A DNA stretch of 35,113 nucleotides from an uncultured Meiothermus sp. Lineage in GTDB: Bacteria; Deinococcota; Deinococci; Deinococcales; Thermaceae. This document shows, piece after piece, positions 7,346-13,223 of this stretch (within the stretch, counting starts at the first letter, position 1; each line of letters starts with the position of its first letter). The position numbers and the translations under genes are program-made. The DNA lies in contig CALFDH010000226.1 in assembly GCA_937950405.1 (NCBI GenBank), forward strand, positions 1 to 35,113, read 5' to 3'. The notes beneath the pieces are model-generated. The model did not search any database and was not told where the DNA came from. It saw nothing but the letters and a program-made list of their open reading frames with translations.

Positions 7346-10300
7346 ATGGCCCTGTATCTTAGCTTGCTGGGCCCGCCCCAGCTCTGGCAGGAGGGTAAGC
7401 CGGTCTCGAGCCTGCCCCGCAAAGCAGTAGCGATGGCGGCCTACCTGGCAGTGTCGGGCCAGGCCGTCGAGCGCGCGCGTCTGGCCGACCTGCTGTGGGA
7501 AGGAGCGGAAGAGGCGGTGCGGCGGAACCTTCGCCAGGAGCTTTTCCGCCTGAAAAATACAGCCTGGGAACGGATATTTGAACAAAGCCCTCAGCATATA
7601 GGGCTGGGGCCGGTAGAGACCGACCTCGAGGCTTTCCTGGCCTGTATGGCCAAAGGGGCCTGGTCGGAGGCGCTGGCCTTGTGGCGGGGGGGATTTCTGG
7701 CCGGACTCGACCCCAAGGCTTCGGAGAGCTACTGGGACTGGCTGATTCCCGAGCGCGAGCGGTGGGAGCGCCTCTACCGGGAAGCCATGCTGGGTCTGGC
7801 GCGTAGCCAGGAAGCAGCAGGCCAGTTTGCCGAAGCCCTCAAGGTCTATCAGAAGCTGCTTGCCGAAGACCCCCTCCAGGAAACCGAACAGCAGGCTGTG
7901 ATGCGTCTCTTCCTGCAAATGGGTGATCGTTCGGCGGCGCTACGGCAGTACGAGCAGTATCGGGTATTGCTGCGGGATCAACTGGGTCTGGAACCCAGCC
8001 CAGAGACCCAGGCTTTTGGGGCGCAGTTGCGGGAAGGGCAGCCTTTGCCCTTACAGCAGCCAGGGGTGGCCCAATTGTTGAGCGAGCCCCCCCTGGTCGG
8101 CCGCGGTGAGGACTGGGCCTGGCTCGAGGCCCACTGGGGGCGGGGCTTGTTGCTTTTGCTGGCCGACGCGGGGGTGGGCAAGAGCCGCCTGGCCCTCGAG
8201 TACGCCAAGCATCAGGTAGGGGCCGGCCCTTCCGAGACCCTGCGCATCCGCCAGCGCGAGAGCGGCCAGGGGATTGGCTTTAGCGGTTTGCTGGAAGCGC
8301 TGAGGCAGGCCCTCGAGGCGCAAAAACTGGGCAACCTCGAGCCCGCCTGGCGCGACGAACTGGCCCAACTGCTGCCCGAACTGGGCCTTCCGCCCACCAA
8401 CCCCCACAAGGCGCGGTTCTTTGAAGCCCTGTGCCGGGCTTTGCAGGCCGTTGTTCGCCCCGGCGGGGTGGTGCAGTGGGACGATCTACACTGGCTGGAC
8501 TGGGCCAGCCTGGAGTTCTTGCCCTATCTGGTACGCCGCGCAGGCAGTCTGGGTTTTTTCCTGCTGGGCACCGCCCGCCCCGAAGCCCTGCAAAAAAACC
8601 AGTCCGTGCGCCTCATTTTGCAAGAAATTGCTCGGGAAGACCGCCTTTTCCAGCGCTTGCTCCAGCCCCTGGATGCACCTGCGCTGGTGCAGTTGCTGCG
8701 CCAGATGTCGGGCCAGCGCGAAGGGGGCCAGCGTTTTGCAGAGCGCTTGTTTCAGGCTACCGAGGGCAACATGTTCTATGTCCTCGAGATTCTACGCTAC
8801 CTCTTCGACCAGGGGTTGTTGCGGGCCGAAGCCGGGGCCTGGCATACCCCCTTCGACAGCTTCACCTCCGACTACCGCGAGCTGCCCCTGCCCCCCAGTG
8901 TGCGCGATGCCCTACTGGAGCGGCTCCAGCGTCTGGGAGAGGGTGCTTTGCCCATTCTCCAGGCCCTCGCGCTGGCCGACTTCCCCTTGTCCCCCGAGAT
9001 GGCCGCAGGGCTGTCACGCCACCTGGGGGCTCCCATCACCGAGCTGGAAAGCCTGACCCAGAGCGGGTTTCTGCGCCTTGACCCCAGCGGCTACACCCTG
9101 CGGCACGAGCTGGTGCGACAAACGGTGCTGGCCGAGATGAGCGAGTCGCGTCGTCGCTGGCTACACGCCCGCATTGCCGATGCCCTCCGCGAGGTGGCGG
9201 GCCCCCTGCCCCAACTGGCCGCGCACCTCGAGGCCGCCGGGCAGCGCGCCGAAGCCTATGTGGCCCACCTGATGGCCGGGCGCAGCCTGCGCCGGGGGCC
9301 GCTGGCCCGGCAAGCCCTGGAGCACTATAACCGCGCCCTGGTGCTGTGCCCCCCCATGGAACCCGACCCCGAGCGCTTTCGAATGCTAATTGAAGCGGCG
9401 GAAACCCGGGTCACGCTGGGGCAGTTGCAGATTCCAGAACGCCAGGAAATGGCTCGTCTGGCCGAGAGCCTGGGCGAACATGAGCGTTTTCGCCTGCTCT
9501 TGCTGAATGCCGATGCCTCCCTGGCTTCGGGCCGGGTGGCCGAGGGCATCGCGGCGGTGCGGGAGGCCCTGCGCCTGGCCCAGACCCCCTGGCAGCGGGG
9601 CCATGCCTTATTCAAGCTGGCCTGGCTCGAGTACCGGGGCGGCGACCCCGATGTGCAGCTCGAGCCCCTCCTGGCCTCTATCCGAGCCTTTCAGGATATC
9701 GGCGACCAGGCCATGGAAACCCTGGCCTTGCGCAACCTCTCGGGTTACTGGTTCCGGCTGGGCGATCTGGCCAAGCACGGTGAAACATACGCCCAAGCCT
9801 TCAAGCGGGCCGCCGAAGTGCGCGACGACCTGCTGCTCCGGCGCTTACGGGCCGATAAGGTTGTGGTGGACTGGGTCAAGGGGGACTACGCCGCCAGCCT
9901 CCAGGTGGCCGAACTTTTGTACCAGGAAGCCCGCGAACGGGGCGACTGGTGGGCGGTGTGGGATGCTTTGCAAGGATTGCTCCTGAACGCAGCCGTGCTA
10001 GGTCTGGAGCCCGAACTCGAGGCCACCGTCCAGCGGGCCATGGTCGAGGCCGCCGAAGTGGGAGCCTGGCGCGACCTGGCCCTGTTGCGCTCCGACTACG
10101 GCAACGCCCTGATGGTGGCGGGCCGCCTGGAGGAAGCCAGAGGCGAGCTCGAGGCAGCCCTGCGCGACCTGCGCGAAATGGGCGAGCGGGCCAGGCTGGG
10201 CCATGTGCTCTTCAACTTAGGCTTCACCTTGCTAGAGCAAGGCTATCTGGAGCAGAGCCGGGAAACCCTGGATCAATCCGTAACCCTCTGGCGAGACCGT

Positions 10301-10618
10301 AAGGAATACCGCCACTCGGCCCGCTCCCTAGCTGCCCTGGCCCTGACCTACCACCGCGCGGGTGACAAGAAAAAAGCCCAGCAACTCTCGGAGGAGGCCT
10401 TCAGCCTTCGCGCCGAATGGGCACGGGGCATCTACGACCTGCCTTTGGTGCTCTACGTCCGGGCCCGGGCCCTGGGCGACCGCAGGGGCCGTGCGCTGCT
10501 GCTCGAGAGCCAGCAGCTTTTGCGCGACCTGGCCCAGCAGTTACCGCCCCATCTTGCGCGGCGCCTCCAGAACAACCGCTATGTGGCCTGGGCGCTCAGC
10601 AAGACCACCGGAACTTGA
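7346..10618 (+). CDS. large SARP/AfsR-like transcriptional activator: N-terminal OmpR-like DNA-binding and BTAD domains, STAND ATPase, TPR-rich C-terminus
   Basis: MALYLSLLGPPQLWQEGKPVSSLPRKAVAMAAYLAVSGQAVERARLADLLWEGAEEAVRRNLRQELFRLK; EEDPLQETEQQAVMRLFLQMGDRSAALRQYEQYRVLLRDQLGLEPSPETQ-type BTAD; P-loop ADAGVGKSRLALEYA; many helical repeats; 1090 aa. Confidence 0.88.
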   Translation: MALYLSLLGPPQLWQEGKPVSSLPRKAVAMAAYLAVSGQAVERARLADLLWEGAEEAVRRNLRQELFRLKNTAWERIFEQSPQHIGLGPVETDLEAFLACMAKGAWSEALALWRGGFLAGLDPKASESYWDWLIPERERWERLYREAMLGLARSQEAAGQFAEALKVYQKLLAEDPLQETEQQAVMRLFLQMGDRSAALRQYEQYRVLLRDQLGLEPSPETQAFGAQLREGQPLPLQQPGVAQLLSEPPLVGRGEDWAWLEAHWGRGLLLLLADAGVGKSRLALEYAKHQVGAGPSETLRIRQRESGQGIGFSGLLEALRQALEAQKLGNLEPAWRDELAQLLPELGLPPTNPHKARFFEALCRALQAVVRPGGVVQWDDLHWLDWASLEFLPYLVRRAGSLGFFLLGTARPEALQKNQSVRLILQEIAREDRLFQRLLQPLDAPALVQLLRQMSGQREGGQRFAERLFQATEGNMFYVLEILRYLFDQGLLRAEAGAWHTPFDSFTSDYRELPLPPSVRDALLERLQRLGEGALPILQALALADFPLSPEMAAGLSRHLGAPITELESLTQSGFLRLDPSGYTLRHELVRQTVLAEMSESRRRWLHARIADALREVAGPLPQLAAHLEAAGQRAEAYVAHLMAGRSLRRGPLARQALEHYNRALVLCPPMEPDPERFRMLIEAAETRVTLGQLQIPERQEMARLAESLGEHERFRLLLLNADASLASGRVAEGIAAVREALRLAQTPWQRGHALFKLAWLEYRGGDPDVQLEPLLASIRAFQDIGDQAMETLALRNLSGYWFRLGDLAKHGETYAQAFKRAAEVRDDLLLRRLRADKVVVDWVKGDYAASLQVAELLYQEARERGDWWAVWDALQGLLLNAAVLGLEPELEATVQRAMVEAAEVGAWRDLALLRSDYGNALMVAGRLEEARGELEAALRDLREMGERARLGHVLFNLGFTLLEQGYLEQSRETLDQSVTLWRDRKEYRHSARSLAALALTYHRAGDKKKAQQLSEEAFSLRAEWARGIYDLPLVLYVRARALGDRRGRALLLESQQLLRDLAQQLPPHLARRLQNNRYVAWALSKTTGT

Positions 10619-10622
10619 TTGA

Positions 10623-10658
10623 AAAATAACGCTAAAATAACGCTCAACTTGCTATTTT
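10623..10658 (+). promoter_or_regulatory. candidate SARP operator-promoter, site 1
   Basis: Tandem perfect 11-bp repeat AAAATAACGCT (10623-10633, 10634-10644), 8-bp spacer CAACTTGC, then TATTTT (10653-10658). Confidence 0.6.
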
Positions 10659-10711
10659 CAACAAAGCTCGGCCCACAACCATGTTGGGGCCAAGTGAGTA
10701 AGGGGGTAGGT

Positions 10712-10861
10712 GTGAGGTATTTGGCAATGGTTTTCGTGCTGGGTCTGCTCCTGCTGGCCTCCTGTGGGAGTCCTGGAGGAAGTGCTGCATGTCCCAACCC
10801 TGCGGTTTTTGATAACAGCCAGTGCAAGTTTGACGATGCCAACACCAAGTTTGGCCCCTAG
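10712..10861 (+). CDS. small predicted lipoprotein
   Basis: GTG start: VRYLAMVFVLGLLLLASCGSPGGSAACPNPAVFDNSQCKFDDANTKFGP; lipobox LLASC; upstream AGGGGG. Confidence 0.6.
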   Translation: MRYLAMVFVLGLLLLASCGSPGGSAACPNPAVFDNSQCKFDDANTKFGP

Positions 10862-10872
10862 GAGAGTGCTGC

Positions 10873-11448
10873 ATGAAGGGAAGCAATATCAAGTTCTTCT
10901 TTTTGGGTGTGGCTCTGGTAGCTACAGGTTTGTGGGCAATGGCAGTGACGATTCCCAACACCTTTACGAGCGGTGAGGCGCTGAGTGCAGCCAAGCTTAA
11001 CGCAAATTTCGCCGCGCTCAAAACGGCGGTAGACGCGCTCGAGGCCGCTGTCCCTGGCAAGCAAAACCGGGTGAGTGGAACCTGTGCGGCGGGCCAGTAT
11101 ATACGCTCGGTCAACGAGGACGGTACGGTGGTCTGTGGGAACCCAGGTGCCTTTGGCCAAGTTCGTGCAGACGGCTCTCTTCGTGGAGGAGCTCTAAACG
11201 TCGCTGCTGTGACCAAAGGTACTGGCGAGTACTGCATCACCTTCACGGTGCAACCCTCCCAGGGCCAGCTCGAGGCTTCACAAGTCACCCTCGCGGGGGA
11301 TGTGGGCTCAGGTGTTTTGTTTCCCAGGGTCAACAATGGTCAAGGGGGTTTTACCCTTTCTTGCCCAAGTGGCCTCGAGGTTGTTCTCACTAACGCAGCC
11401 GGAACCAAGACCGATGGACGGTTTAGCTTCTCGGTTCCGCCACAGTGA
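10873..11448 (+). CDS. secreted hypothetical protein, surface or phage-tail-like N-terminal motif
   Basis: N-terminal hydrophobic segment, then AVTIPNTFTSGEALSAAKLNANFAALKTAVDALEAAV, a motif common in bacterial surface and tail-like proteins. Confidence 0.7.
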   Translation: MKGSNIKFFFLGVALVATGLWAMAVTIPNTFTSGEALSAAKLNANFAALKTAVDALEAAVPGKQNRVSGTCAAGQYIRSVNEDGTVVCGNPGAFGQVRADGSLRGGALNVAAVTKGTGEYCITFTVQPSQGQLEASQVTLAGDVGSGVLFPRVNNGQGGFTLSCPSGLEVVLTNAAGTKTDGRFSFSVPPQ

Positions 11449-11628
11449 ACAAGGTTGATTCAGTTGTGTGTACTTGCCGGGTGGTATGCGCTTGGGGTAT
11501 TTGCGCAACGCAGAAATGTTTTGGGCCTATCAAGCTATTAACCTAGCATTTACCCTTTACCTTGCAGTGACCCTAGATACCACTGAATGCTTGGAGCGCA
11601 AAGATTGCCTTTCAGAATCTTGATTCTG

Positions 11629-11660
11629 TAACGGCAATATAACGCTGGACTTGTTAGCCT
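11629..11660 (+). promoter_or_regulatory. candidate SARP operator-promoter, site 2
   Basis: TAACGGC (11629-11635) and TAACGCT (11640-11646) at 11-bp period, 8-bp spacer GGACTTGT, then TAGCCT (11655-11660). Confidence 0.55.
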
Positions 11661-11711: not shown

Positions 11712-13223
11712 ATGAAACGTCTCTAGTGGATTCTGAGTATGAGTCTAGTTCCTCTACTGACGGCCTGCCCAGGAGGTGGTGGCGGCACCCCCAGCCTGGC
11801 AATCTCGCCCAAGCCCAGCACCGTAACTGCGGGCACCGTAGTCACCTTCAACGCCACCCTCTCTAACGCTACAGGCACCATAAACTGGACACTTTCCGGC
11901 GCGGGGTCGCTGTCTGCGACCACCGGCACTTCGGTCACCTACACCGCGCCCGCCAGTGTACCCACTCCCGCTAGCGTGACCCTGACGGCTACCTCGGGTT
12001 CTCTGAGCGATAATGTCAACTTCACCATTGCCGCACCTGCAGCCATTACGGTTGCCGGTACCGTAATCGGTATGAACCTAGAGCCCGTTGCAAGTGCGTC
12101 AGTTGTGATTACCTCGGGCAGTACCAATATAAGCACAACCACCAACGCAAGTGGTGCATTCAGTGTTGCCGGGGTAACGCCTCCATATGACGCGACTGTG
12201 GTTACTGGGAACCAATCGCTCATATACAAGGGTTTGACCCGAACCGATCCAACCCTGATCTTTCTTGGGGTTTCTCCAGGCGCTTCTCGCTCCGCATCGC
12301 TGAGTGGGACGGTTTCGGGGGGTGCAGGCTTCCCTGAACCTGCAAACCACGTGACCAAAACTGCTTTTGGATCACCCGAGGCGCTAGACAACGCAACCGC
12401 TGCCCCTGCTACGGGTGCTTATAACATGGGTACGGTAAGCTGGTTTGGCCCCACTACCACCACCGGAAATATTCATGCGCTCCAGTGGCTGTTCGATGCA
12501 ACAAACTTCCCCACCGACTATAAGGGATATGGGCAAAAGCTCAACGTAGCCTTGTCCGATGGTGGCGCATTTGCCAGCCAGAACGTCACCATGTCCGGGG
12601 TTAGCGAAGCTGCCATTTCGGGCTCGGTCACCCTTCCAGCTGGATATAATCTCGCAAGCAAGCGCATGTCAGTTGGTTTTGCAGACAGGTCTCTAATAGA
12701 GGTACTTTCAGATTTTGGTGCAAGCGCCAACTTCACCTATACCACCCCCAATGTCACTGGGGCAACCATACAGATGCGAATTGCTACGGTAAATGCTGCT
12801 GGAACCAGAGTGGTTACCACCAAACCTGGCCTTGCAGTCAATGCAACGGGAGTCTCGATTACCCTACCTGCGGGTTCAGACCTCAGCTTGCCACCAAATG
12901 CTGCCACAAATGTAAATAACAGCACGACCTTCTCCTATACGCCCTTCTCGGGGGGAGTGCACTTTGTGGTATTCGATGGCCCTGGGGCAAATCCCGATTA
13001 TGTGGTGGTAACTGCTGCTGCCAGCACTACCATTCCCAATCTCAGTTCGGTTGGGCTTGGACTGCCTCCGTCTACGGTCTATTCCTGGAATGTCCAGGGG
13101 GCAGCACCGTTCGCAAGCGTAGATGCTGCCGCAGGGCCTGGTGGCTGGCTGGCTGTGTTCCTGGGTACAGCCGAAGGCAGTCGGACTGCCTCCACAAACC
13201 GCTCATTTACCACCGCACCCTAA
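11712..13223 (+). pseudogene. lipoprotein with Ig-like/carboxypeptidase-regulatory-like repeats; TAG at codon 5 of the apparent signal peptide
   Basis: GGAGG then ATG AAA CGT CTC TAG TGG ATT CTG AGT ATG AGT CTA GTT CCT CTA CTG ACG GCC TGC: MKRL*WILSMSLVPLLTAC... in frame with the 494-aa ORF at 11739-13223. Translation could restart at 11739. Confidence 0.6.

Follow-up and report, generated by a model that had tools for sequence, protein, structure and literature searches.

The window, by which we mean the whole stretch of 35,113 nucleotides of DNA from Meiothermus, a hot-spring bacterium, that was analysed, carries at positions 7346-10618 of the forward strand a gene for a large SARP of the AfsR type (1090 aa, with a winged-helix DNA-binding domain, a BTAD, a STAND/AAA ATPase and TPRs), and two sites of the same layout and strand lie downstream of it. 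Site 1 consists of the tandem unit AAAATAACGCT x2 (10623-10644), in which the heptamer TAACGCT is found at 10627-10633 and again at 10638-10644, followed by the spacer CAACTTGC (10645-10652) and TATTTT (10653-10658). Site 2 consists of the heptamers TAACGGC (11629-11635) and TAACGCT (11640-11646), the spacer GGACTTGT (11647-11654) and TAGCCT (11655-11660). These features match base for base the original prediction, in which both sites were described as 11-bp repeats with an 8-bp spacer and TANNNT. The pattern TAACG-N6-TAACG-N10-TANNNT was present twice in the window and in none of 100 dinucleotide shuffles. The likeness to GCTCGGCnnACAACC that had been proposed for the leaders of both sites was weak; GGCTACAACCCG is retained at site 2 in relatives, and since the site-1 leader is unconserved in relatives a common leader was set aside. 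A perfect inverted repeat, CAGAATC-TT-GATTCTG (11613-11628), is located immediately 5' of site 2 and is only partly kept in relatives.

The first gene after site 1 (10712-10861, forward strand, GTG start) encodes a predicted lipoprotein of 49 aa and the second (10873-11448, forward strand) a predicted exported protein of 191 aa, for which no Pfam match above the cut-off was obtained. The lipoprotein is 85.7-91.8% identical in the ortholog loci L063, L064 and L111 and 62.5% identical in L166, and in these four loci the 191-aa gene is kept behind the lipoprotein gene, the operator always precedes and the upstream heptamer of site 1 is retained. Site 2 is followed by a gene for a lipoprotein-like exported protein (11712-13223, forward strand), orthologs of which sit behind the operator in L063, L064, L111, L113, L156, L165 and L168, where the upstream heptamer of site 2 is also kept. 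In this assembly the 11712 gene contains an in-frame TAG at codon 5 (11724-11726; MKRL*W) and the open frame resumes at the ATG at 11739 (494 aa). Codon 5 is F or L in seven orthologs and no TAG was observed in the relatives examined; the stop, within 11712-11738, reflects either a genuine nonsense mutation or a mistake in the assembly. A secondary-metabolite cluster around the regulator was considered and found no support in the Pfam results for the neighbouring genes.

That the regulator is a SARP, as had been proposed, and of the AfsR type is supported by its Pfam domains and its predicted fold. Pfam matches were obtained for BTAD (7.5e-20), AAA_16 (5.8e-13, residues 250-401) and TPR_12 (3.5e-9, residues 954-1022), the sequence contains a GVGKS motif, and there was no Pfam call for the N-terminal DNA-binding domain. 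An AF2 model of residues 1-235, based on an alignment with 76 relatives, had a pLDDT of 95.3, and its best Foldseek match was AfsR in a transcription initiation complex (E = 3.7e-12), with a further match to EmbR (E = 1e-9); identity to AfsR in the aligned SARP domain was 22%. In a profile comparison the match to AfsR spanned its residues 25-267, and the top entry reached E = 1.1e-21. In AfsR of Streptomyces coelicolor the repeats have an 11-bp period, the 3' repeat lies 8 bp from the -10 and the protein binds as a side-by-side dimer; like the window SARP, it combines a winged helix, a BTAD, a NOD/STAND domain and TPRs with this promoter layout (PMC10936776). Three features expected of the AfsR type can be recognised here, namely a winged helix followed by a BTAD, a C-terminal NOD/STAND part with TPRs and the 11-bp/8-bp promoter layout, whereas binding and activation are inferred. 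The historical, non-structural trait from which SARPs take their name, activation of an antibiotic cluster in an actinomycete, does not apply, given the Thermaceae orthologs and the genes next to the sites, which encode exported proteins, small proteins, a DegT aminotransferase and others. The recognition helix is inferred to be formed by residues 55-68, EEAVRRNLRQELFR (7508-7549, forward strand), which are helical in the AF2 model and belong to a segment that varies between SARP groups. By inference, position 1 of the repeat corresponds to T-27/T-38, the bases read by R92 in AfsR, and alignment through EmbR suggests that the window equivalent of R92 should be R68.

Coupling between operator and target genes was examined in 16 loci, the window included, that carry an ortholog or close co-ortholog of the regulator; orthologs were found in Meiothermus/Thermaceae. 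The operator was present in 12/12 loci with either the lipoprotein/exported pair or an 11712-type gene downstream and in 0/4 loci with neither (L065, L068, L069 and L131, where it is absent or degenerate), a difference that is significant (Fisher's exact test, p = 5e-4) when shared ancestry is left uncorrected. The repeats were thus kept beside the orthologs that retain the targets, and the observation that would have refuted the prediction, loss of the repeats where both regulator and targets are kept, was looked for in these loci and not seen. The operator of M. granaticius (L067:5660-5707) has three 11-bp-phased repeats (TAACCCC, TAACGGG and TAACGCC) instead of two.

The genome scan that had been suggested gave 10 matches to TAACG-N6-TAACG in the 2.89-Mb genome (G000), those in C190 and C234 being copies of one site, and all 10 had TANNNT at exactly 10 bp, i.e. 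the same 8-bp spacer, even though a variable gap was allowed. Dropping the -10 requirement returned the identical 10 places with none added, and the reversed pattern had no match in this genome. Among the 151 family matches listed, with a gap of 1-25 bp allowed, the spacer was 8 bp in 115 and 7 bp in 12. The consensus over 101 distinct sites was (A/G)TAACGC-N4-(A/G)TAACGC(C/T)-N5-TGC-TAnnCT, with T in 44%, G in 61% and C in 68% of the sites in the columns before TA. The ACTTG that had been pointed out in the spacers is indeed common to both and, because of this consensus, is best read as probably representing an extended -10 (TGnTAnnnT), inferred from the column frequencies as TG C TATTTT at site 1 (10650-10658, forward strand) and TG T TAGCCT at site 2 (11652-11660, forward strand). 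Most TAACG sites do not adjoin a SARP. The genes behind them include both window targets, SARPs, other exported proteins, a DegT/DnrJ aminotransferase, stand-alone ATPase-like and glycosyltransferase-like proteins (functions other than DegT judged by eye from sequence) and two families of 65-70-aa proteins without Pfam match. The original prediction was too narrow in scope: copies of the operator are spread over the genome, and SARP/operator pairs form a set that extends throughout the family. A conserved TAACGCGCnTGTAACGA promoter was also seen without a convincing reading frame behind it (L055, L199, L205, L211 and L225), possibly because the gene start was misplaced or because the transcript is an RNA that is not translated.

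Each of the 17 family genomes in which the ortholog is intact had 6-16 TAACG matches, versus 0-4 in each of the 32 without it (G003, with a split ortholog copy and 18 matches, was excluded from the comparison). Within the genus, the counts of the 14 ortholog-bearing and 4 ortholog-lacking genomes do not overlap, and the gene for a 66-aa protein, a family whose function was not revealed by a Pfam search (no match), was present in 13/14 of the former and 0/4 of the latter; the operator precedes 13/13 of its orthologs. The genus comparison is not fully independent, since a single lineage may account for all four ortholog-lacking genomes. These four genomes retain one perfect TAACG site, at the DegT gene (L236-L239), which indicates that more than one protein may read TAACG. 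Furthermore, TAACG repeats are found outside the window group, upstream of the C167-type SARP and L129 and downstream of L100, and given that these are related SARPs the regulon may be shared. Together with the similar helices carried by related genes, these observations leave it possible, in our judgement on the unlikely side, that the window SARP controls the two adjoining promoters while the dispersed TAACG sites are shared among SARPs of overlapping specificity. The fall in site number where the ortholog is missing speaks against this and indicates that the ortholog accounts for most of the TAACG sites. In C167 (L051:2778-5130), another SARP of the genome, a TAACGT operator lies 11 bp ahead of the start codon; the gene is apparently split into two frames, its orthologs L132 and L178 being full length.

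For the family as a whole, a de novo scan was run on 89 non-identical Thermaceae SARP loci for any 7-bp repeat with a period of 8-14 followed by TANNNT at a spacer of 3-14, with no sequence named beforehand. Only period 11 gave a peak, located shortly after the SARP gene and in the same orientation, where the best spacers had 24-34 matches and nearly all other downstream cells no more than 2. No comparable peak was found on the reverse strand or in the gene interiors of these loci, and their upstream flanks showed only a weak excess at period 10 (up to 9). When the -10 requirement was dropped, 15 perfect 8/8 repeats were counted at period 11 and 0-1 at each of the other periods. From the scan output we assigned operator classes: class A, TAACGC (the window group, helix RRNLRQELFRL); class B, TGACG (QHNLRQTLYRL); class C, GCAACGC (RRNLRRELFRL or RANLRREL); class D, GTCATCC (RNNLAQALRRL); class E, CACTTATCTG, located upstream of the SARP gene (MNNLHQNLYHA); and class G, with GGAACGCC as the repeat unit beside the SARPs. 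A few members depart from the usual helix of their class, e.g. L100, L129 and L172. On a SARP tree built without the recognition helix the operator class changes 8 times, compared with 24-33 times when labels were shuffled. That different activator copies lie beside different repeats suggests, as far as sequences can tell, a readable protein-DNA recognition code. A single-residue rule (NLRR giving CAACG) was dropped, L178 having NLRR beside TAAC/TGACG-type repeats. Although the tree pointed to the GCAACGC operator having arisen in parallel in two SARP clades, a constraint that kept the groups together was not rejected (AU p 0.08 and 0.44), and no parallel origin is claimed. Small-protein genes (about 65 aa), related or similar to the TAACG-regulated one, were also observed directly 3' of other SARPs (L257, L258, L047 and L049), a position like that of afsS, which adjoins afsR in Streptomyces coelicolor.

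Regulators of the OmpR/PhoB type share the winged-helix fold and the 11-bp direct-repeat layout, and a conventional response regulator of this kind (e.g. MtrA-like) could in principle read TAACG with the SARP merely adjoining; the DegT sites that persist in the four genomes without a window SARP ortholog are compatible with such a reader. We nevertheless consider this improbable, given that other SARP groups adjoin other repeat units in the same layout, that the 11 genes of this genome with an OmpR-type Trans_reg_C domain all lie on contigs without a TAACG site, and that a receiver domain, the criterion for an OmpR/PhoB response regulator, was not among the Pfam matches of the window SARP. A few TAACG sites occur in other families of the phylum, and in the large sister genus g4, probably Thermus, 4/5 of the sites examined are divergent from a SARP-like gene, which makes it more likely that the sites there are read by another SARP than by a response regulator. 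The g4 promoters L092, L093, L094 and L097 are divergent from a short SARP-like ATPase gene and upstream of exported-protein genes. GTCAT sites, which in g4 appear only with the class D SARP, also argue against a response regulator: they were found in 17/17 genomes with a class D SARP versus 2/33 without, and in one 27-genome genus in 3/3 with versus 0/24 without, many of them within a few kb downstream of the class D SARP. This class D test is less exposed to the single-lineage problem than the TAACG test.

The earlier interpretation, an AfsR-type SARP acting on these promoters, is strongly supported by sequence evidence, in the absence of bench data. Layout, conservation, target coupling, co-variation, presence/absence association and fold can be read from the sequences and models. 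Binding, dimerisation, activation and signal sensing by the STAND/TPR part are inferred. In the proposed mechanism the SARP most likely binds as a side-by-side dimer through its winged helix, with one of the two (A/G)TAACGC repeats on each turn of the DNA. The pair of repeats would end 8 bp before the extended -10 and substitute for a -35 element, and it is therefore proposed that the SARP recruits RNA polymerase, which would switch on the 10712/10873 and 11712 genes. The same SARP, perhaps with relatives of like specificity, may drive about nine promoters in the genome. Many Thermaceae SARPs likewise lie just upstream of, or at, a repeat-bearing promoter of their own, with a repeat that varies between SARP groups together with the recognition helix. 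The SARP might instead bind the repeats as a repressor or at an autoregulatory site, given that some repeats precede SARP genes themselves (C185 and C167), but this appears very improbable because the distance of 8 bp from an extended -10, together with the location in place of a -35, matches the architecture of the activator AfsR (PMC10936776). Chance repeats, in favour of which nothing was found, are refuted by the shuffles and by conservation across relatives and can be disregarded. Taken as a whole, an AfsR-type SARP with the repeats as its operators, a regulon of about nine promoters and an expanded family in Thermaceae is an explanation that we hold with high confidence.

The nearest reported relatives in the phylum are DnrS of Thermus and a Deinococcus SARP response regulator. 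DnrS of Thermus thermophilus, in the same family, is a BTAD-containing activator needed for transcription of the nar and dnr operons; it has an N-terminal GAF and a C-terminal BTAD without STAND/TPR, and the parts of that report available to us describe no operator (PMC5748679). Deide_19260 of Deinococcus deserti is a SARP-type response regulator with a SARP output domain that, unlike the window SARP, has a CheY-like receiver and lacks STAND/TPR (PMC3564903). In the genome studied here, C170 has a BTAD and lacks the STAND/TPR layout. EmbR of Mycobacterium tuberculosis shares the SARP-type DNA-binding and BTA domains with the window SARP, with an FHA domain in place of STAND/TPR. The window SARP differs from the AfsR/afsS system in that it is from Thermaceae and not an actinomycete, that its repeat is TAACGC, that its inferred target genes encode exported proteins, a 66-aa protein and a DegT aminotransferase, and that Thermaceae have several SARP paralogs per genome with differing repeats. 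No description of a Thermaceae SARP/operator system was found in the literature searched (open-licence papers only).

The window thus adds to the AfsR kind a regulator from outside the actinomycetes whose regulon spans the genome, its binding and activation being inferred. Of more interest is the broader family in which SARPs and operators are linked: we think it probable that Thermaceae contain an expanded STAND-SARP family, many members of which are linked to promoters with their own repeats, and that operator and recognition helix have co-diverged. To our knowledge, nearly everything known of SARPs concerns activators of antibiotic genes in Streptomyces, and here the SARP-operator architecture would recur in thermophiles of a different phylum as a regulatory family with multiple copies. 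Since at least six operator classes are coupled to differences in the recognition helix, SARP specificity should be testable by swapping a few residues; candidate regulators are also assigned to dozens of exported and very small proteins that otherwise lack annotation. If true, such a family could serve directly as a data set from which to decode SARP-type DNA recognition and would represent parallel one-component sensors that control surface and small proteins.
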